Positions 39,891 through 49,985 of a stretch of DNA of 53,774 bases are shown piece after piece (within the stretch, counting starts at the first letter, position 1; every line of letters starts with the position of its first letter). The notes under the pieces were generated by a model. The model made no database searches. It was given only the letters and a program-made list of their open reading frames with translations, and had not been told where the DNA came from. This DNA is from Myxococcales bacterium (GTDB taxonomy: Bacteria; Myxococcota_A; Polyangia; GCA-2747355): assembly GCA_020431405.1 (NCBI GenBank), contig JAGQIK010000096.1, positions 1-53,774 of the forward strand, written 5' to 3'. The position numbers were made by a program, and so were the translations under genes.

Positions 39891-41333
39891 CTACTGCACC
39901 TCCGCCAGATACTTCGACGCCAGGCGCGCGCCCGCGTTGCGGAAGCGATCCATCAGCGTCGAGTGGCCGTTGCAGTACCAGTGGCCCTCGTCGCGGCCCA
40001 TCACCGGCTCGTTGCGCCAGACGAAGATCTCGTGCAGCTCGATCTCGCCCTGGTGTACGTCGCCCGTCTCGGCGACAGAGATCACGCGGCGCGTACCGTC
40101 CGAGCCGCGCGAGACGTTGATCACCACGTCGATGGCGCGCGCGATCATCTCGCGCATCATCGACTCGCCGAGCTGCGTGCCGGCCATGCTGAGCATCGAC
40201 ATCAGGCGCGTGAACGCGTCGCGCACGTTGTTGGCGTGCACGGTGGTCATCGAGCCGTCGTGGCCGGTGTTCATCGCCTGGATCATGTCGAGCACCTCTT
40301 CGGAGCGACACTCGCCGACGATGATGCGATCGGGGCGCATACGCAGCGCGTTGCGGACGAGGTCGCGGATGGTGACCTCGCCGGCGCCTTCGAGGTTGGG
40401 CGGGCGCGTCTCGAGGCGCGCCACGTGCTCCTGCTGAAGCCTCAGCTCGGCGCTGTCCTCGATGGTGATGATGCGCTCGCGCGAGGGGATGTAGCGCGAC
40501 AGCGCGTTGAGCAGCGTGGTTTTGCCCGAGCCGGTGCCGCCGCAGACGAGCACGTTGCAGCGCGCGCGCACGACGCTCTTGAAGTAGTGCGCCATGCCGC
40601 TCGAGCAGGAGCCGCCCTCGATCAGCTCGCGCAGCGAGACGGGGCCGGTCTGGAAGCGACGGATCGAGAGCAGCGGGCCGTCGACGGCCAGCGGCGGGAT
40701 GATCGCGTTGACGCGCGAGCCGTCGGGCAGGCGCGCGTCGACCATCGGCGACGACTCGTCGATGCGGCGCCCGATGCGCGCGACGATGCGGTTGATGGTG
40801 TTGAGCAGGTGCTCGTTGGAGCGGAAGCGCACTTCGCTGCGCTCGAGCACGCCGCGGCGCTCGACGTAGATGCTGTCGGCCCCGTTGACGAGGATGTCGC
40901 TGACGGTCGGATCGCCGAGCAGGCGCTCGATAGGACCGAGGCCGACGATCTCGTCGGTGATGGCTTCGATGACGCGGCGCCGGCCGCGGCTGCCGACGGC
41001 GATCTGGCGCTCGTCGATGGCGCGGCCGACCAGCTCCTGCACGCGCTCTGCGACCTCGCCGGGATCGAGATCGACAATACCGCCGGTGTCGAGGCGGTCG
41101 ACGACCTCGTGATAGAGCGTCTCGAACAGCTCGTTGGCGATGGCGGGCGCTTCGCCGCCGCGCCGGTCGCGCTCGCGGCCGCGCGTGCGTTGGGCGCGAT
41201 CGAGGTCGCGGTCGTAGCCCTCGCGCTCGCGTCGCGTGCCGCGCTCTTCGTGCTCGCGCCCGTCGCGCCCGTCGCCGTCGTCGCGATCGTCATCGCGGCG
41301 ACCGCGACCGAGTCTCTCGGTGAGGCGGATCAC
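39891..41333 (-). CDS. cpaF: CpaF/TadA-family pilus assembly ATPase
   Basis: A 480-residue secretion ATPase. The first 80 residues are a charged, probably disordered stretch ([19 protein letters not shown]). The catalytic core has Walker [15 protein letters not shown], the Asp box [15 protein letters not shown], Walker B-region [14 protein letters not shown] and the His box TTVHANN, all typical of CpaF/TadA. It powers Flp pilus assembly and retraction on the TadB/TadC platform. Its start overlaps the cpaE stop by four bases (ATGA). Confidence 0.95.
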
Positions 41334-42610
41334 GAGCGCTCCTTGCCGAAGCGGCGCTTCTTGGTCGGCTTGAGGCTCACGTGGAAGAGCCCCTCGGTCA
41401 TCTCGATCACGTCGCGGGTGATGCGCGCGCGCTTGGAGATGCCCGAAAGCGGCGTGCCCGAGTCGAGCGCGCGGTGCGCGGTGTTGAAGTCGTTGGCGAC
41501 GACGAAGCTCGGCTCGACGCCGAGGGCGTTCTCGATGGCGCTCAGCGAGACGTTGGCCTTGCGCGAGTAGCGGTTGAGCACCAGGTGCAGATCCGCGTCG
41601 CCCCAGCCGAGGCGGCGAAAGACGTCGAGTCGCAGCGACAGCCCGCGCATCGACGGCACGTCCTGCGAGCCCACCAGCACGACCTGATCGGACTGATCGA
41701 GCAGCGCCATGGCGTGGTCGTTGAAGTCGCGGATGCCGTCTACGATGAGCACATCGAAATGATCCTGCACGAGATGTACCAACGATTTCATGGCCTCATG
41801 GTCGATCTCGCTCACCGAATCGATGTGTCCGACCTGCGAGAGCACGTAGGCGCCGGAGGCGTGACGGGGGAGCCGCTCGCGCCAATGGCCGTGGCTATCG
41901 TCTCTGATCTGTTGCCGATCTTGGTAGATCTCGCTCAGCGGATAGGACTGCTGGAGATCGAGCGCGGTGAGCACCGTGCCGAACTGCAGGTCGAGATCGA
42001 GCAGTGCGACACGACGCCCGGTGGTGGCTAGCTCTGCGGCTACTGAGGTTGCCAGAGTGGTGCAACCAACCCCACCTCGGCAGCCGAAGAAAACCGTAAT
42101 CTCGCAGCCATCGGTGCGCTCTCGCGGTGGTCGTGCCTTGCGCACTTGCTCGGCGGCTTCGGCCGCGCTGAGCATGTGGGTCTGCAGCACGCCGGCCTCG
42201 GCCTTGTGCGCGATGCGCTCGCGATCCTCGCGCCGCGCGCGCTCGCTGGGGCGCTCTTCCGGCTCGCGGCGCGCGCGGGCACTGACGCGTTCTTCGGGCT
42301 CGCGTTGCGCCCGCCCGCTGACGCGCTCTTCGGGCTCGCGGTCGCGCCCGCGGTTGGGGATCTGCGCCGTCTGTGGGTCACGCTTCTTGGGGCGCGGCTC
42401 GAGGCTGTCGGGCGGCAGATGTGTCGGCGCGTTGGTGCCCGGCGGCAGCGGCGGCGGCCCGCCCGACGGCGGCGGCGCGCCGCGATCGAGCGTGGCGTTT
42501 TCTATCTCTTCTTGCAGCTCGTGTTTGGGACGCGGCGTGCGATGCAGTGAAGCGTTGCCCTCTCCTCGGGGCACCACCACCCACTTGGCTCTCACGCCGT
42601 CCTTGCTCAC
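41330..42610 (-). CDS. cpaE: CpaE/TadZ-like pilus assembly ATPase
   Basis: A 426-residue protein. Residues 1-140 are Pro-rich and then Arg/Glu-rich with 12-residue repeats. The ATPase core begins ITVFFGCRGGVGCTTLATSV: the deviant Walker A has Cys where the P-loop Lys before T would be (GVGCTT), so ATP hydrolysis is doubtful, as in several TadZ/CpaE proteins. Other motifs are LLDLDLQFGTVLTAL, DVLIVDGIRDFNDH and VVLVGSQDVPSMRGL. TadZ localises the Tad machine at the pole. It overlaps the secretin and cpaF by four bases each. Confidence 0.9.
   Translation of the reverse strand: MSKDGVRAKWVVVPRGEGNASLHRTPRPKHELQEEIENATLDRGAPPPSGGPPPLPPGTNAPTHLPPDSLEPRPKKRDPQTAQIPNRGRDREPEERVSGRAQREPEERVSARARREPEERPSERARREDRERIAHKAEAGVLQTHMLSAAEAAEQVRKARPPRERTDGCEITVFFGCRGGVGCTTLATSVAAELATTGRRVALLDLDLQFGTVLTALDLQQSYPLSEIYQDRQQIRDDSHGHWRERLPRHASGAYVLSQVGHIDSVSEIDHEAMKSLVHLVQDHFDVLIVDGIRDFNDHAMALLDQSDQVVLVGSQDVPSMRGLSLRLDVFRRLGWGDADLHLVLNRYSRKANVSLSAIENALGVEPSFVVANDFNTAHRALDSGTPLSGISKRARITRDVIEMTEGLFHVSLKPTKKRRFGKERS
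42203..42340 (-). repeat. 12-residue Arg/Glu repeats in CpaE N-terminus
   Basis: REPEERVSGRAQ, REPEERVSARAR, REPEERPSERAR and a degenerate REDRERIAHKAE follow each other at residues 91-138, encoded by a 36-base tandem repeat. Probably a disordered, charged linker between the Pro-rich head and the ATPase domain. Confidence 0.8.
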
Positions 42611-44163
42611 TTCGAATACCCCACCGGTCCCGCTGCGCCGGCGGCGCGCTTGTCGCTCTTCTTGTCGTCCTTGAGCTGCGGATCGGTGCTGCCGAGCAAG
42701 AAGAAGGCGACGGCGCCGGGGTCAGCGATCTCGTTTTCGCCCGGTAGCAGCGGCACCTCGCCGGGCTTGAGCGGCCGCACCAGGTGCGCGGTGACGAGGA
42801 TCACCAGCTCGCGCTCCTCGCGCTCGAACGTCGATTGGCGAAAGAGCATGCCGAGGATCGGGATGTCTCCGAGCAGCGGCACGCGCAGGCTGGTGCTGCT
42901 GACGCGATCTTGCAGCAAGCCGGCAATGGCGAAGCTCTGACCGCTGCGCATGCGCACGGTGGTGGCGGCGTGGCGCGTGACGAGCGCCGGCACCTGCGTG
43001 CCCTGCAGCGATACCGACGTTGCCGTGTCGCGCTCGCTGACCGACACCATCACGCGGCACTGGATCGATCGATTGCGCAGCACCACCGGCGTGAACTCGA
43101 GCTGCACGCCGAACTTCTTGAACTGCACGGTGGTCTGGCCGAGGCCTTGCGGGATCGGGATCGGAAACTCGCCGCCGGCCAGAAAGGACGCCTTCTCACC
43201 CGAGTAGGCGACGAGCGTCGGCTCCGAGAGCACTTTGGCGAGGCCGTGGCCCTGAAGCAGGTTGAGCGCGATCGACAGCGGGATCATCGTGTTGCCGCCG
43301 CTGGCGAAGTGCAGCCCGAAGGCGCTCGAGAGCGGCCCGGCGATGTGCGCCAGCGGCGGCACGCCGGTGGTGGTGGTGCCGGTGCCGGTGTTGTCGGGCA
43401 CCTGCGGCGCCATCGCGCTGCCGCCCGGCTGCAGCGTGTTGCCGGTGGTGCCGAGGTTGGGCGCCGTCTGCGCGCCGAGGGGCGTGCCCGCCGAGAGCAG
43501 GCCGCCAGCGTAGGACTCGCCGCGGCGAAACCAGGCGTTCATGCCGACCTGGCGCAGCGAGCGACGCGCCACCTCGGCGATCTTGACGCGCAGCTGCACC
43601 TGCTGGCGGCCTTTGACGCCGAGGAAGTTGAGCACCTTCGCTTTGCCGCCGCGCGAGCGCACGTACGCTTCGGCGACGGCGCTGGCGCGCTTGACCGTGA
43701 CGGGATCGCCGACGGTGCCCGAGAGCACGACGGTGGCGCCCACCGCGTGCACGCGCATGCGGTCGCTGGGAAACAGCGCGCGCAGCTTGGCCGAGAGGCC
43801 GGCCGTGGGGCTGCTCACATCGATCAGCACGCGCGTGAGCAGGCCGAGCGCGTCCCACACCAGGATCGTCGCCTCGCCCGGGCGTTTGCCCAGCACGCGC
43901 AGCAGGCGCTTGCCTTGCGTCTGCGCGTCGGCGATGCGCGGATCGCTGACGCGGATGCGATCGATGGGGGCCTTGAATCGCACCAGGCGCTTGGCGCCGA
44001 TGGAGAGGCTGATCGGGATGTCGGCTTGTCTGACTTGCCTAGGCTTATTGCGCTGGGCGCGCGCGGGCCGCGGCGGAAGCGTGACGATCAGCGTGGCGAC
44101 AACGAGTACGAGCGGGGCGCCGCGGCGGGCTAGCCGCGGGCGGAGCGGGCAGAGGCGTCGCAT
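42607..44163 (-). CDS. cpaC: CpaC/RcpA secretin
   Basis: A 518-residue outer-membrane secretin. It has an N-terminal signal segment (VLVVATLIVTLPP), the T2SS N-terminal domain (IPISLSIGAKRLVRFKAPID; RVSDPRIADAQTQ), a BON-like segment (LRALFPSDRMRVHAVGATVV; VVLSGTVGDPVTVKRA), and the secretin channel domain (VQLRVKIAEVARRSLRQVGM; GGEFPIPIPQGLGQTTVQFK; PLLGDIPILGMLFRQSTFER). The C-terminus has ELVILVTAHLVRPLKPGE. It forms the pilus exit channel. It overlaps cpaE by four bases. Confidence 0.93.
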   Translation of the reverse strand: MRRLCPLRPRLARRGAPLVLVVATLIVTLPPRPARAQRNKPRQVRQADIPISLSIGAKRLVRFKAPIDRIRVSDPRIADAQTQGKRLLRVLGKRPGEATILVWDALGLLTRVLIDVSSPTAGLSAKLRALFPSDRMRVHAVGATVVLSGTVGDPVTVKRASAVAEAYVRSRGGKAKVLNFLGVKGRQQVQLRVKIAEVARRSLRQVGMNAWFRRGESYAGGLLSAGTPLGAQTAPNLGTTGNTLQPGGSAMAPQVPDNTGTGTTTTGVPPLAHIAGPLSSAFGLHFASGGNTMIPLSIALNLLQGHGLAKVLSEPTLVAYSGEKASFLAGGEFPIPIPQGLGQTTVQFKKFGVQLEFTPVVLRNRSIQCRVMVSVSERDTATSVSLQGTQVPALVTRHAATTVRMRSGQSFAIAGLLQDRVSSTSLRVPLLGDIPILGMLFRQSTFEREERELVILVTAHLVRPLKPGEVPLLPGENEIADPGAVAFFLLGSTDPQLKDDKKSDKRAAGAAGPVGYSK

Positions 44164-44189
44164 CCAATCATTCTACCACTTTCGGCGCG

Positions 44190-45167
44190 CTACCAGCGCT
44201 CGATGCGCGGGCCGCTGGGCTTCTTGGCGGCGGGCGGAGCGGCTTTGGGGGCGGGCTTCGGTCGGCGACGGCGACGGCGGCGTGCGCGGCGTGGACGGCG
44301 CGGCGGCTGCTTGGCGGTCGCGACGGGGCGGCGGTTGGCCTTCGCGTCGGCGCGGTCTTTGTCGTCGTCGTCGTCTTTGCCGAGCAGCGTGGACAGCTTG
44401 GTGCCCTCGACTTTGGCCTTGCCCTTGTCTTTGGGGCTGCGCAGGGCGAGGTCGATCTTGCCTTCGCGTCGCGCGAGGATGAACGTGCTGACCTGCTCGG
44501 GCGTCAGCGCGAAGGTCACGACGCGACGTGCACGCGCGGCCTGCTGCGCGCCGCCGCCGGAAAAGCCGCCGCCGCGGCGCCGCCGCCCGATACGCCGGTG
44601 CTCGGCGCTGGCGGCGTCGATGTCGGGGCCGATGGCGAGCACGCGGATGTCTTGCAGCAGCGGGCGCGTCTGCGCGGTGTAGCTGCCGTCGCGGCGGCGC
44701 TTCTTGAGCGTGGTGAAGAGGTCGATGTGGGCGCCGGGATAGAGCAGCCGCGAGAAGGCCACGCTCATGTCGACGCGGATCGAGACGGCACGCTGGCCGG
44801 GCTCGAGCGTGGCGGCGACGCCCATGCCGCCGTTGGGCTTCGACAGGTGCGCGGTCAGCACCGCCGAGCCCGCCACGAGCGGCACCAGCGGCACCGAGCG
44901 GCGCGCGAGCACCGCCTTGCGCGTGCGAAACGCACCGCGCGGCACCGACGAGATCGGCCATTGCGCGATGCGCAGGTCTTTGCGTTCCATGCGCTCGCCG
45001 GCCGGCACGTCGCGCGCGGCGACGACGATCGGGGCGACGGGCTCGCTGTTGTACTTGGCGCTGAGCACGCGCGAGAAGAGCCAGCCGGCGCCCGCCGCAG
45101 ACGCGACAGCGGCGGCCATGAAGGCCACCGTCGCTACGGAAGTGCTCTTTTTACGAACGGCAGTCAT
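44190..45167 (-). CDS. cpaB: CpaB/RcpC-like Flp pilus assembly protein
   Basis: A 325-residue protein with an N-terminal membrane segment (ATVAFMAAAVASAAGAGWLF), a SAF domain (PIVVAARDVPAGERMERKDL; RIAQWPISSVPRG) and the RcpC domain (RAVSIRVDMSVAFSRLLYPG, then AHIDLFTTLKK). An internal basic linker and a highly basic, Pro-rich tail (RRRRRPKPAPKAAPP) are additions beyond the family core. CpaB sits in the periplasm and is needed for Flp pilus biogenesis. It follows tadE by 12 bases. Confidence 0.9.
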   Translation of the reverse strand: MTAVRKKSTSVATVAFMAAAVASAAGAGWLFSRVLSAKYNSEPVAPIVVAARDVPAGERMERKDLRIAQWPISSVPRGAFRTRKAVLARRSVPLVPLVAGSAVLTAHLSKPNGGMGVAATLEPGQRAVSIRVDMSVAFSRLLYPGAHIDLFTTLKKRRRDGSYTAQTRPLLQDIRVLAIGPDIDAASAEHRRIGRRRRGGGFSGGGAQQAARARRVVTFALTPEQVSTFILARREGKIDLALRSPKDKGKAKVEGTKLSTLLGKDDDDDKDRADAKANRRPVATAKQPPRRPRRARRRRRRRPKPAPKAAPPAAKKPSGPRIERW

Positions 45168-45179
45168 GAGGCCGATGTC

Positions 45180-45650
45180 TCAGAGGGGCATGGTGGCCGA
45201 CGTGTTCAAGTTTATCAGGGTCACGCCGTGCTTCTTGAGAAGCTTTCGCCCCACGCTGCCAACGAAGGCGCAGTGGATCTCGATGTGGATGGCGTCGACG
45301 TGGCGAAGGCCAGCGAGCGCGCGGCGCGAGACGCTGACCTGGACGCCGCTGCCGGTGCTGCCGCCCGCGTCGCCGTCGCCGCCGCCGCCGCCGCACCAGT
45401 GAGCCACCGACGCGATCTTCTGGCGCACGTGCTGCTCGCAGGTGGCCATGTCGGTGGACTCGAGCGCGCAGGCACGCGCCGATTCGTTGGCTGCGCTGGC
45501 CAGCTGGTAGCGCGCGTAGATCGCCTGGCCGAAGGTCACACCAGCGTAGAGCATCGCCACCAGCAGCGGCAGCACGAGCACGAACTCGAGGGCGGCGATG
45601 CCCCGTTCGTTGTCTCGGCCGCGGCCGCGTCGTGTGCGTTGCTCGCGCAT
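45180..45650 (-). CDS. tadE: TadE-like pseudopilin
   Basis: A 156-residue protein. After a short basic head (MREQRTRRGRGRDN) it has ERGIAALEFVLVLPLLVAML, the TadE pseudopilin signature with conserved Glu, followed by YQLASAANESARACALES. The remainder is a periplasmic domain with three cysteines and a Gly-rich loop (CGGGGGDGDAGGSTGSG). TadE is processed by TadV and needed for pilus assembly. ATG 45650 is 5 bases after the tadV stop; the longer frame to 45866 lies inside tadV. Confidence 0.85.
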   Translation of the reverse strand: MREQRTRRGRGRDNERGIAALEFVLVLPLLVAMLYAGVTFGQAIYARYQLASAANESARACALESTDMATCEQHVRQKIASVAHWCGGGGGDGDAGGSTGSGVQVSVSRRALAGLRHVDAIHIEIHCAFVGSVGRKLLKKHGVTLINLNTSATMPL

Positions 45651-45655
45651 TTGTC

Positions 45656-46153
45656 TTAGCCCAAGCCCGGGAGGCCGCCGGCGCGCAGCACGACGAGCAG
45701 ACCGCCGATGGCGATGGCCACTGCGTAGGGCACGCCGCCGCTGCGGCTTGCCTCGCGCAGCGAGAGCGCGCGGCGACCGCGACGTGCGAGCATCGCGATG
45801 GCGAGCACGCCGCCAGCGAGGGTCGCCGCCACCAGCGCGGTGACGAAGGCCTTGGGCCCGAGCCACGCGGCGAGCGCGACGAAGAGCTTGACGTCGCCGC
45901 CGCCGAGCCAGCCCTTGGCGAAGGGCACCAGCAGCACGATCATCGCGCCGAGCGCCGCGCCGAGACCCCAGGCCAGCTCGCCGAAGCCGCCCAGCGCGCC
46001 ACGCGCGACGAGGCCACCCACGAGCAGGGCCACGGTGAGCAGGTTGGGCACGCGACGCGAGCGCATGTCGAGCGCTGCGGCGATCAGCAGCCCTGCGCAG
46101 AGCGGCAGGGATGCGATGCCTTGGCAGCTGCTGAAGAGCTCGGTGATGGCCAT
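45656..46153 (-). CDS. tadV: TadV/CpaA-like prepilin peptidase
   Basis: A 165-residue A24-family aspartic protease with membrane segments. The two catalytic Asp motifs are present: LIAAALDMRSRRVPN (first Asp) and GWLGGGDVKLFVALA (GxGD motif). It cleaves the Flp prepilin and TadE/F pseudopilins. The ATG at 46153 is preceded by GGGAG. It lies between flp (stop 46209) and tadE. Confidence 0.93.
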   Translation of the reverse strand: MAITELFSSCQGIASLPLCAGLLIAAALDMRSRRVPNLLTVALLVGGLVARGALGGFGELAWGLGAALGAMIVLLVPFAKGWLGGGDVKLFVALAAWLGPKAFVTALVAATLAGGVLAIAMLARRGRRALSLREASRSGGVPYAVAIAIGGLLVVLRAGGLPGLG

Positions 46154-46756: not shown

Positions 46757-47869
46757 ATGCCGAGCTATTTGGACGCACTCGAGAAAGCCCTTCCCGTCAT
46801 CACCGAGCACGCGCTGGCCGTCGACAAAGAAGCAAGATTCCCGAAGGAATCGCTCGCGGCGCTGCGCGAGGCGGGCCTCATGGGGCTGATCAGCAGCACC
46901 GACGTGGGCGGTCTGGGGCAAGGTCTGCGCGCGGCGGGTGAGGTCATCGAGCGCATCGCGCGCGAGTGTGGATCCACGGCGATGGTGCTCTGCATGCACT
47001 ACTGCGGCGCGGCGGTGATCGAGAAGCACGGCAGCACCGAGTCGCGCAAGAAGGCGTCGGGCGAAGAGCTCTCCACGCTGGCGTTTTCGGAGGCGGGATC
47101 GCGCAGCCACTTCTGGGCGCCGGTGAGCTCGGCGACGGCGGATGGCGACGACGTGGTCCTCGATGCGCACAAGAGCTGGGTCACGTCGGCGGAAAACGCC
47201 GCGACGTACGTGTGGTCGAGCCAGCCGCTGTCGGCCGAGGGCGCGAGCACGATCTGGCTCGTGCCGCGCGCGGCCAAGGGCATCGCTATCAAGGGGCCCT
47301 TCGAAGGGCTCGGCTTGCGCGGAAACGACTCGTCGCCGGTGACCGCCGAGAAGGTGCGCATCCCGAAGGCCAACATGCTCGGCGAGGACGGCGGCGGCTT
47401 CGGCGTGATGATGGAGACCGTGCTGCCGATCTTCAACGTGATGAACGCCGCCTGCACCATCGGTCTGATGGAGGGCGCGGTGCAGCGCACGATCGCGCAC
47501 GTCTCGGGCACGCGCTACAAGCACCTCGACTCGGCGCTCGCCGACCTGCCGACGATCCGAAACTACGTCGCGCGCATGCGCAACAAGGCCGACATGGCGC
47601 GCACGCTGTGGCAGGACACCATCGCTGCCGCCGAGGCCGGCCGCGCCGACACCATGCTGCGCGTGCTGCAGGTCAAGGCCACCGCCGGCGAGACGGCCAC
47701 CGAAGTGCTCGATCTGGCGATGCGCGTGTGCGGCGGCGCCGCCTTCCGGCGCGATGTCGGCGTCGAGCGCTACTTCCGCGACACGCGCGCGGGCGGCATC
47801 ATGGCGCCCACGACCGACGTGCTTTACGACTTCATTGGCAAGGCTGTCTGCGGCATGGACCTGTTCTAG
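46757..47869 (+). CDS. Acyl-CoA dehydrogenase-family flavoenzyme
   Basis: A 370-residue protein with the acyl-CoA dehydrogenase fold: N-terminal helical domain (FPKESLAALREAGLMGLISS; GSTAMVLCMHYCGAAVIEKH), FAD-contact LAFSEAGSRSHFW (compare AxTEPxxGSD), middle domain (AHKSWVTSAENAATYVW), and C-terminal helices (VCGGAAFRRDVGVERYFRDT). The GGAAF/RDTRAG region is similar to the FAD-binding end. The catalytic Glu position is not clear, so a hydroxylase/desulfurase-type (SfnC/DszC) activity is possible. ATG 46757 has AGAGGA upstream. First gene of the operon with a PhnD-like protein and a diiron protein. Confidence 0.88.
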   Translation: MPSYLDALEKALPVITEHALAVDKEARFPKESLAALREAGLMGLISSTDVGGLGQGLRAAGEVIERIARECGSTAMVLCMHYCGAAVIEKHGSTESRKKASGEELSTLAFSEAGSRSHFWAPVSSATADGDDVVLDAHKSWVTSAENAATYVWSSQPLSAEGASTIWLVPRAAKGIAIKGPFEGLGLRGNDSSPVTAEKVRIPKANMLGEDGGGFGVMMETVLPIFNVMNAACTIGLMEGAVQRTIAHVSGTRYKHLDSALADLPTIRNYVARMRNKADMARTLWQDTIAAAEAGRADTMLRVLQVKATAGETATEVLDLAMRVCGGAAFRRDVGVERYFRDTRAGGIMAPTTDVLYDFIGKAVCGMDLF

Positions 47870-47892
47870 GTCTACAGTCAGAGGAGAAGAAC

Positions 47893-48750
47893 ATGGCAGA
47901 GACGCTTCTGATGGGTGCCGTCGCCTACGACCCCAAGGTCGTGACGATCTGGGACGGCTTCAAAGTCTACTTCGCCGAGCAAGGGCTCGACTTCGACTTC
48001 GTGCTGTACTCGAACTACGAGCGGCAGGTCGAGGCGCATTTCGGCGGCCACTTTCACGTGGCGTGGAACTCGCCGCTGGCGTGGCTGCAGGCCGAGCGCT
48101 TCGCCAAGCGCGCCGGTCGCGCGGCGCACGCCATCGCCATGCGTGACACCGATCGTGATCTGACGTCGGTGGTGATCGTGCGCGACGACTCGACGATCAA
48201 GTCGGTCAACGACCTCGCCGGCAAGAAGGTCGGCGTGGGCGCGGCCGACTCGCCGCAGGCGACGTTGATCCCGCTGTTGCACCTCGCCGAGGCGGGCGTT
48301 ACGCCGCACGACGACTTCGAGGTGGTGCGCTTCGACGTCGACCTCGGTAAGCACGGCGATCACGTCGGCGGCGAGCGCGACGCGGCCAAGGCGCTGCTCG
48401 ACGGGCGCGTCGACGCGGCGTGCCTGATCGACGCCAACCACCTCGGCTTCAGCAAGGAAGGCACGCTGCCGAGCGGCGCCACGCGCGTGCTGGCGCAGAC
48501 CAAGCCGTACGACCACTGCAACTTCACCGTGCTCGACGGTGCGATCGAGGACGCGCGCATCAAGCGCTTCCGCGAGCTGCTGCTCGGCATGTCGTACGAC
48601 GATCCCAAAGTGCGGCCGCTGCTCGACCTCGAGGGGCTCAAGGTCTGGAAGGACGGTCGCACCGAGGGCTACGCGCTGCTCGAGGCGGCTATCGATCGCT
48701 TCGGCACGATCGAAGACTTCCTCGCGGGCCTCGGCAAGCGCTGCATGTGA
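47893..48750 (+). CDS. PhnD/SsuA-like substrate-binding protein without signal peptide
   Basis: A 285-residue protein of the PBP2 fold: MGAVAYDPKVVTIWDGFKVY start, HVAWNSPLAWLQAERF, then VVIVRDDSTIKSVNDLAGKK, VGVGAADSPQATLIPLLHLA and AKALLDGRVDAACLIDANHL. These match phosphonate/sulfonate-type periplasmic binding proteins (PhnD, SsuA). No signal peptide or lipobox is present and no permease or ABC ATPase is adjacent, so the protein probably works in the cytoplasm as a ligand-binding or enzyme-assisting domain. GAGGAGAAG lies 7 bases before ATG 47893. It overlaps the next gene by four bases. Confidence 0.85.
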   Translation: MAETLLMGAVAYDPKVVTIWDGFKVYFAEQGLDFDFVLYSNYERQVEAHFGGHFHVAWNSPLAWLQAERFAKRAGRAAHAIAMRDTDRDLTSVVIVRDDSTIKSVNDLAGKKVGVGAADSPQATLIPLLHLAEAGVTPHDDFEVVRFDVDLGKHGDHVGGERDAAKALLDGRVDAACLIDANHLGFSKEGTLPSGATRVLAQTKPYDHCNFTVLDGAIEDARIKRFRELLLGMSYDDPKVRPLLDLEGLKVWKDGRTEGYALLEAAIDRFGTIEDFLAGLGKRCM

Positions 48751-49985
48751 GCGGAGAAGCGGCCCGCAAAGCGTGCGCGCGGCTCGATCTCGCCGACCTC
48801 GGCTTTGATCGCGGCGCGCACATGCTCGTCGCGCGTGCGCTGTCGGGTATCGGCGTGGGCGAGACGCTCGACGTCTGCGGCCGCGCCCCGGCGCTGGGCG
48901 TGCACCTGCGCGCCTGGTGCCGCCAGATGGGCCATCCCTTCCAAACGCTCGGCGACGATAGCGAGATCGGGGGCGATATCGTCGCGCGCATCGCGCGCGG
49001 CGATGTCGAGATCAAGCGCTGGGCTGGCGCGCAGCGTGCCGGCCACCCCGATCGCGATCGCGACGACGCCGTATCCGAGCACCCCGCGCCGCGTTGGGGC
49101 CTCGCCGCGCGCGGCGCGCTGGTCGAAGACTCGGCGCCGGCGTTTTCGTTCGGCATCGACCACAAGCACGTGGTGTGGACCGAGGAGGCGCCGCGGCTCT
49201 ACGCCCAGGCGGCGGCGGCGCAGTGGGATCCGGCGACGGCGATCCCCTGGGACGCGCCCTTCGACATCCCCGATGACGTCGAAGACGCCATCGTGCAGGT
49301 CATGACCTATCTGGTCGAAAACGAGACGGCGGCGCTGCTGGTGCCGGCACGTTTTCTGGCCCAGATGCACCCGCACTTTCGCGAGATACTGCAGCTGCTG
49401 GCGATCCAGGCGGCCGACGAGGCGCGCCACATCGAGGTCTTCACGCGGCGCGCGCTGCTGCGGCGCGAGGTGCTGGGGCTGTCCACCGCCGGTGGCCAGG
49501 CCTCGCTCAAGACGCTCGTCGACGAGCCCGACTTCGCGCTGGCGATGTTTCTGCTCTCGGTGCTCGGCGAGGGCACGTTCCTCGCGCTGCTGTGGTTTCT
49601 TCATCGCAACGCGCCCGACCCGGTGACGCGCGAGGTGACGAAGCTCGCCGCGCAGGACGAGGCGCGCCACGTGGCGTTCGGTTTGGCGCACCTTTCGCGC
49701 CACGCCGAGCTCGACAAGACGCTGCACGCGCGGCTGGCGCTCGCCGTCGAGCAGCGCCACGAGGCGCTGATGCAGACCGCCGGGCTCAACAGCGAGGTCT
49801 TCGACGCGCTGGTGCTGCTGGCAGCCGGCGAGTTTTCGCCCGAGGCGATCGAGCGCGGCTATCAGGCCGTGATGACGCTGCAGCAAGAGATGGACGTCGG
49901 GCGCCGCAAGCGGCTGGCCAAGCTCGGCTTCGACGACGCCGAGGCCGAGCGCCTCTCCGCGCTGCATACGCGCAACTTCATGTAG
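48747..49985 (+). CDS. Degenerate TusA domain fused to ferritin-like diiron protein
   Basis: A 412-residue protein starting at GTG 48747, overlapping the PhnD-like stop (GTGA). Residues about 8-85 align with TusA/SirA (LDLADLGFDRGAHMLVARAL; GIGVGETLDV; WCRQMGHPFQ) but the catalytic Cys-Pro-x-Pro is replaced by FDRGAH, so no sulfur transfer is expected. Residues about 190-340 form a ferritin-like four-helix bundle with diiron ligands: Glu in VENETAALL, ExxH in ADEARHIEVF, Glu in LGEGTFLAL, ExxH in QDEARHVAFG. This suggests an oxygen-activating non-haem diiron enzyme. Its 3' end overlaps the convergent methyltransferase by eight bases. Confidence 0.85.
   Translation: MSGEAARKACARLDLADLGFDRGAHMLVARALSGIGVGETLDVCGRAPALGVHLRAWCRQMGHPFQTLGDDSEIGGDIVARIARGDVEIKRWAGAQRAGHPDRDRDDAVSEHPAPRWGLAARGALVEDSAPAFSFGIDHKHVVWTEEAPRLYAQAAAAQWDPATAIPWDAPFDIPDDVEDAIVQVMTYLVENETAALLVPARFLAQMHPHFREILQLLAIQAADEARHIEVFTRRALLRREVLGLSTAGGQASLKTLVDEPDFALAMFLLSVLGEGTFLALLWFLHRNAPDPVTREVTKLAAQDEARHVAFGLAHLSRHAELDKTLHARLALAVEQRHEALMQTAGLNSEVFDALVLLAAGEFSPEAIERGYQAVMTLQQEMDVGRRKRLAKLGFDDAEAERLSALHTRNFM

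Follow-up and report, generated by a model that had tools for sequence, protein, structure and literature searches.

We analyzed a 53,774-nucleotide stretch of DNA (the window; contig JAGQIK010000096.1 of GenBank assembly GCA_020431405.1) from a Myxococcales bacterium whose genome of 11.2 Mb is assembled in 733 contigs. Three plus-strand genes of the window encode an acyl-CoA dehydrogenase (ACAD)-like flavoprotein, a solute-binding protein (SBP), and a protein in which a TusA-like domain is joined to a diiron domain (Table 1). An initial annotation, made from the sequence alone, had reported a 23-base gap between the first two genes and an overlap of the third gene start with the SBP stop codon via GTGA, and both its coordinates and this spacing were correct. 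Because the genes on either side are both on the minus strand, the trio at 46757-49985 is a closed operon. We show here that the flavoprotein and the SBP are the usual core of a module whose third slot is occupied by either a TusA-diiron or a TusA-radical S-adenosylmethionine (SAM) protein, never by both in the genomes searched.

Products of the three genes

The window flavoprotein carries all three ACAD domains above the Pfam cut-offs. Its nearest family in NCBIfam is NF049984 (Rv1679/FadE16), on which it scores 417.8 bits without reaching the cut-off of 600 (next family, 155.6), and on which a mycobacteria-type relative scores 637.9 bits; the ACAD-fold families of sulfur compounds SulpropCoADesulf and SfnB are also among its profile matches. 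The position of the catalytic Glu of acyl-CoA dehydrogenases is Ala350 in the window flavoprotein, and MAPTTD or near variants replace IYEGTSE of those enzymes in 36 of 36 aligned proteins, mycobacterial relatives included. The earlier description of a dehydrogenase-like flavoenzyme holds for the fold and the domains and is incomplete as to the missing catalytic Glu, and an ordinary role in beta-oxidation was rejected because this residue is missing throughout.

The SBP matches the Phosphonate-bd family (PF12974) with 113.6 bits (cut-off 27), and its nearest NCBIfam family is NF049985 (Rv1680), with 245 bits against a cut-off of 400 that is not reached (next family, 62.1). Its AlphaFold model (mean predicted local distance difference test [pLDDT] score 93.0) matches PtxB with a Z score of 24.5 over 252 residues at 3.4 Å, and ArrX and PhnD1 also match. 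The first strand of the model starts at residue 5 and therefore leaves no room for a signal peptide. In addition, no transporter gene (permease or ATPase) was found as a conserved neighbor in the best 80 loci of the 489 relatives obtained by an SBP scan of GTDB representative genomes, the set to which the locus counts below refer. Both observations bear out the annotated absence of a signal peptide and of a transporter, and transporter-linked scavenging was rejected because no conserved transporter gene lies beside the trio. The window SBP is thus similar to the periplasmic proteins PtxB, PhnD1, ArrX, and AioX in fold (Z 20-24.5) and in sequence, but differs from them in having neither signal peptide nor transporter genes and in its invariant motifs.

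These motifs include R84, D87, S120, H154, D156, H208, C209, and R241, which are invariant in the SBPs of all variants of the module. The H208-C209 pair is present in 53 of 53 module SBPs, whatever the third gene, and absent from all three homologs that are solo or outlying. Two solo homologs without an adjacent ACAD or oxidase gene (L076:8074-8907 and L077:8380-9141), from two large genomes of the class to which the window belongs, have lost the pair. A His of phosphonate SBPs aligns with Glu161 of the window SBP. The structural neighbors bind phosphite, methylphosphonate, arsenate, or arsenite, which is only a hint as to the ligand because the motifs of the SBP differ from those of these neighbors.

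The third protein scored below the Pfam cut-offs for both AurF (PF11583; 26.7 bits, cut-off 29.6) and, at its N-terminus, TusA (PF01206; 14.3 bits, cut-off 28.6), while a relative (L070) is above the TusA cut-off with 32.0 bits. In the whole-protein AlphaFold model (mean pLDDT 94.6), an N-terminal beta-alpha-beta-alpha-beta-beta domain, the element order of TusA, is followed by a helical bundle. Structural comparison of the helical part by VIA-align gave practically tied matches to the azoxy synthase VlmB (8wvr; Z 23.1, 258 residues, 3.0 Å), aldehyde-deformylating oxygenase (Z 22.2, 214 residues, 2.4 Å), and R2-like oxidases (Z 21.9, 250 residues, 3.0 Å), and Foldseek agreed on the fold. The ferritin-like fold (Z 21-23) and the E/ExxH/E/ExxH ligands are common to VlmB, aldehyde-deformylating oxygenase, R2lox, AurF, and the window protein, which differs from them in its low identity (14-23%), its extra TusA-like domain, and its fixed SBP and flavoprotein partners. 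Each predicted diiron ligand is kept in 92-93 of 93 homologs.

The N-terminal domain resembles the TusA sulfurtransferase in its predicted fold and shows weak profile similarity to it, but the active-site Cys of TusA is present in 0 of the 93 aligned diiron proteins, while the adjacent Gly23 is invariant. The domain was accordingly read correctly at first as sulfur-carrier-like without its catalytic Cys, and a role as an active sulfur carrier was rejected for lack of this residue. Tandem diiron-like proteins of ~360 and ~380 aa without the TusA part, which share ~30% identity with the diiron domain of the window protein, were also seen (L201:6567-9261; also L202, L203, L204, and L208). The ExxH ligands are lost in the first copy and kept in the second at L201, and the pairs of L201-L203 have a gene for 140-163 aa upstream.

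Table 1. Positions in the window of the three genes, their domains, and conserved residues
Feature	Position	Strand	Details and basis
ACAD-like flavoprotein gene (Rv1679/FadE16-like)	46757-47869	+	370 aa; Pfam Acyl-CoA_dh_N/M/1 above cut-off
M349-APTT-D354 segment	47801..47818	+	Alignment; replaces YEGTSE segment with ACAD catalytic Glu
Cytosolic PhnD/PtxB-fold SBP gene, Rv1680-like	47893-48750	+	285 aa; PF12974
K153-H154-G155-D156 motif	48349..48360	+	SBP alignment; near-invariant in SBPs
H208-C209 motif	48514..48519	+	SBP alignment
TusA-like domain + diiron protein, single gene	48747-49985	+	412 aa; GTG start
Cys-less TusA-like domain, residues 11-83	48777..48995	+	Profile match, model, alignment; common to radical SAM alternative
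Ferritin-like diiron domain, residues 140-411	49164..49979	+	Fold of VlmB / aldehyde-deformylating oxygenase / R2lox (VIA-align, Foldseek)
Predicted diiron ligand E193	49323..49325	+	93/93 proteins
Predicted diiron ligands E225xxH228	49419..49430	+	93/93 proteins
Predicted diiron ligand E275	49569..49571	+	93/93 proteins
Predicted diiron ligands E305xxH308	49659..49670	+	E305 93/93, H308 92/93

Linkage of the trio and exchange of its third gene

The trio travels together across genomes, and its members are not mostly found apart: all three genes were present in 75 of the 80 loci, which belong to Nitrosomonas and other Pseudomonadota, Planctomycetota, Acidobacteriota, Myxococcota, Eremiobacterota, Rokuibacteriota, and Acidimicrobiia. 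Spacing is also kept: of 72 loci representing many phyla, 66 have the diiron start 800-1000 bp from the end of the ACAD gene. Because no further neighbor family was recurrent in the 80 loci beyond close Nitrosomonas or planctomycete synteny, the trio is a stand-alone module. In the class of the window, 193 genomes were compared: the SBP occurred in 37 and the full-length diiron protein in 34, with both in 32, the SBP only in 5, the diiron protein only in 2, and neither in 154 (Fisher p 7e-29, uncorrected for phylogeny); the two genes were adjacent on the same contig in all 32. The diiron gene also adjoins the SBP gene in L191/G543, as found by a genome search. At one planctomycete locus (L152:6837-7865), a gene with weak similarity to the EgtB/SenA family lies between the SBP and diiron genes.

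At the loci whose SBP is nearer to Rv1680, the third gene is not the diiron gene. In mycobacteria-type loci (L189, L239-L241) and in L190, an Rv1681/MoeX-type radical SAM gene directly follows the ACAD and SBP genes. The N-terminus of the radical SAM protein aligned with the diiron TusA-like domain in hhalign at 96.9% (E 1.8e-10, 68 columns), compared with 0.2% for the controls, i.e., the other half pairings of the diiron and radical SAM proteins, and an hmmsearch with the diiron N-terminal profile matched the radical SAM protein of L230 at 7e-11. We then counted both oxidases in 50 genomes, 49 of which had the SBP, scoring an Rv1681 gene when it was above the cut-off: 33 had the full-length diiron protein, 9 the Rv1681-type radical SAM protein, none had both, and 8 had neither (one-sided p 1e-5, uncorrected for phylogeny). 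No Rv1681-type gene (NF049973) was matched at E 1e-40 in the genome from which the window comes. In the SBP tree, radical SAM carriers formed two separate clades, one of which joined a diiron carrier (96%), and at least two changes of the third gene are required by the well-supported branches.

A third occupant of the slot, a MetE-like catalytic-domain protein, was found in the operon at L198 (Actinomycetota sample) and at L237 and L253 (Planctomycetota sample), and neither the diiron nor the radical SAM oxidase was found in these three genomes. The SBPs of the MetE-like carriers form one clade (97%). This occupant reminds us of MesD/MesX, O2-requiring core methionine synthases whose methyl donor is unknown (PMC7857596), but no DUF1852 gene was seen with the MetE-like variant. 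Taken together, we are confident that the module and the swap of its third gene are real.

Other observations concern the surroundings of these genes. At L189:8637-9542, the gene that abuts the start of the flavoprotein gene encodes a hydrophobic protein of 301 aa with no Pfam match, and genes of similar size are found at the same place in L239-L241. Relatives of the Rv1681-type radical SAM protein without the TusA-like domain and with a longer, phosphoesterase-looking N-terminus were seen at L242:5869-8748, L243:5650-8546, and L245:7115-8782, and those of L242 and L243 adjoin an ArsM-type methyltransferase gene (NF040538, arsinothricin-type; 342-345 bits, below the cut-off). On account of these cousins, arsenic was considered as the substrate of the module and rejected, as they are another subfamily. 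Just upstream of the trio in the window, a tad/cpa pilus-like cluster (CpaE-, CpaC-, CpaB-, and TadE-like proteins and a prepilin peptidase; 41330-46153, minus strand) was read by eye only.

Relation to known systems

The nearest named families of the window flavoprotein and SBP are those of the mycobacterial set Rv1679-Rv1680-Rv1681 (FadE16, SBP-like, and MoeX), the gene order is alike, and Rv1681 carries a Cys-less TusA-like domain homologous to that of the third window protein. The window flavoprotein and SBP are distant relatives of Rv1679 and Rv1680. Because the window proteins fall below both curated cut-offs and the radical SAM member is absent, its place being taken by a diiron enzyme, the window genes are a variant of the Rv1679-Rv1681 set and not members of it. 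The mycobacterial genes have already been noticed by annotators, since NCBIfam has separate families for Rv1679, Rv1680, and Rv1681. In open-licence PubMed Central papers, we found no function for the trio, Rv1679-Rv1681, or fadE16, only proteome, annotation, and biomarker mentions; nor did we find the diiron version or the shared TusA-like domain described there. The remark of the initial annotation that no such characterized system is known thus agrees with that literature, but NCBIfam already names the Rv1679 and Rv1680 relatives and the Rv1681 radical SAM family.

A possible capture-and-oxidise module and its alternatives

These results support the general idea, proposed in the initial annotation, of a small oxidation system, for which an organophosphorus, organosulfur, or thioester-bound substrate had been offered as a guess. 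The exchange of the diiron part for a radical SAM part on the same TusA-like domain lay outside what that annotation could see. The module may be a self-contained, cytosolic one that captures a metabolite and oxidizes it, a mechanism which, taken as a whole, we put forward tentatively and at a little short of even. The SBP would capture a small metabolite, perhaps one bearing an oxyanion. The flavoprotein would either supply electrons or carry out a two-electron step that is not acyl-CoA dehydrogenation, and the third enzyme would perform a radical oxidation of the same intermediate, using O2 at the diiron site or a radical SAM centre without O2. The TusA-like domain, having lost the sulfur-carrier Cys, would dock either oxidase to the partners that both have in common, and the SBP ligand, the flavin step, and the radical step would belong to one pathway. 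A more specific form, which is possible but which we hold with more doubt, is a plug-in system of a kind not described before, in which the SBP and the ACAD core without its catalytic base are constant and the Cys-less TusA plug attaches a diiron or a radical SAM oxidase for the same reaction. A precedent for one step with two enzyme types is provided by the cyclases AcsF (diiron, O2-dependent) and BchE (radical SAM; PMC7319587), which have no domain in common, whereas the window-type diiron and radical SAM proteins share the TusA-like domain and the partners.

Several points weigh against this capture-and-oxidise mechanism. Genome context is the only basis for supposing that the diiron and radical SAM oxidases would carry out equivalent reactions in the manner of AcsF and BchE. 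At the Pseudomonadota loci L230 and L231, the radical SAM gene is in convergent orientation, and in L073 and L075, from the class of the window, it lies a few genes off; the mycobacterial radical SAM copies have a reduced TusA-like part that is linked mainly via the family profile. The p value for the exclusion of the two oxidases takes no account of shared ancestry. In addition, the MetE-like replacement is not an oxidase and has no TusA-like domain, and three genomes (G396, G633, and G352) have the core pair with none of the three third genes, so that the third gene may be unneeded there or of another kind.

Some of these points are also expected if the diiron and radical SAM proteins carry out different reactions on different substrates and the core pair serves as a general platform, for delivery or redox, to which lineages have coupled different enzymes, the MetE-like one included. 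The non-oxidase occupant, the genomes with the core pair alone, and the SBPs of the variants, which form well-separated clades and whose ligands may therefore differ, are consistent with such a platform. However, the ligand-side residues listed above are the same in every variant, which suggests a single ligand, and we regard the platform as unlikely.

Somewhat less probable, in our view, is an enzymatic role for the SBP fold, like that of MqnA/MqnD or THI5, in a biosynthetic branch that makes a cofactor or metabolite through steps of the flavoprotein, the SBP-fold enzyme, and the oxidase. MqnA/MqnD work with radical SAM enzymes. An enzyme would fit the cytosolic location of the SBP fold and its invariant K, H, D, E, H, and C residues, in which it is unlike its transport homologs. 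The module is also found in small autotroph genomes, such as one of 2.1 Mb from Nitrosomonadaceae, which is more in keeping with biosynthesis than with exotic catabolism. Its distribution inside phyla is, however, patchy (4 of 299 Pseudomonadota genomes and 9 of 149 genomes of the Planctomycetota sample), the structure matches are transport and sensor SBPs, and no cofactor gene is linked to the module.

More doubtful again is that the module takes a methyl or C1 group off a methylated, oxyanion-like S, P, or As compound. The diiron enzyme would act oxidatively and the radical SAM enzyme without O2, while the MetE variant would move the methyl group to a thiol, a division of labor to which we give the same low probability. 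The ligands of the nearest SBP folds, the sulfur-compound families matched by the flavoprotein, the MetE-like replacement of the third gene, and the ArsM-type genes beside the TusA-less radical SAM cousins all point in this direction, but all of this support is indirect and the cousins are a separate subfamily. Moreover, the MetE-like carriers form one clade and therefore represent a single replacement event, and the window SBP has Glu161 at the His position of phosphonate SBPs. Finally, chance adjacency of ordinary fatty-acid or nutrient-scavenging genes, to which the automatic gene names and the listing of FadE16 among beta-oxidation proteins in the proteome of starved mycobacteria (PMC11250799) point, is strongly disfavoured and very improbable, given the missing catalytic Glu, the absence of a signal peptide and a transporter, and the strict linkage across phyla.

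It is unusual for a diiron enzyme to be replaced by a radical SAM enzyme while both keep one small domain in common, and this exchange suggests that TusA-like domains can be docks rather than sulfur carriers. A trio that is linked over many phyla and has no known function is likely to be a missing step of a pathway. If the plug-in reading is true, the uncharacterized mycobacterial Rv1679-Rv1681 would be the radical SAM form of the system found in the window.

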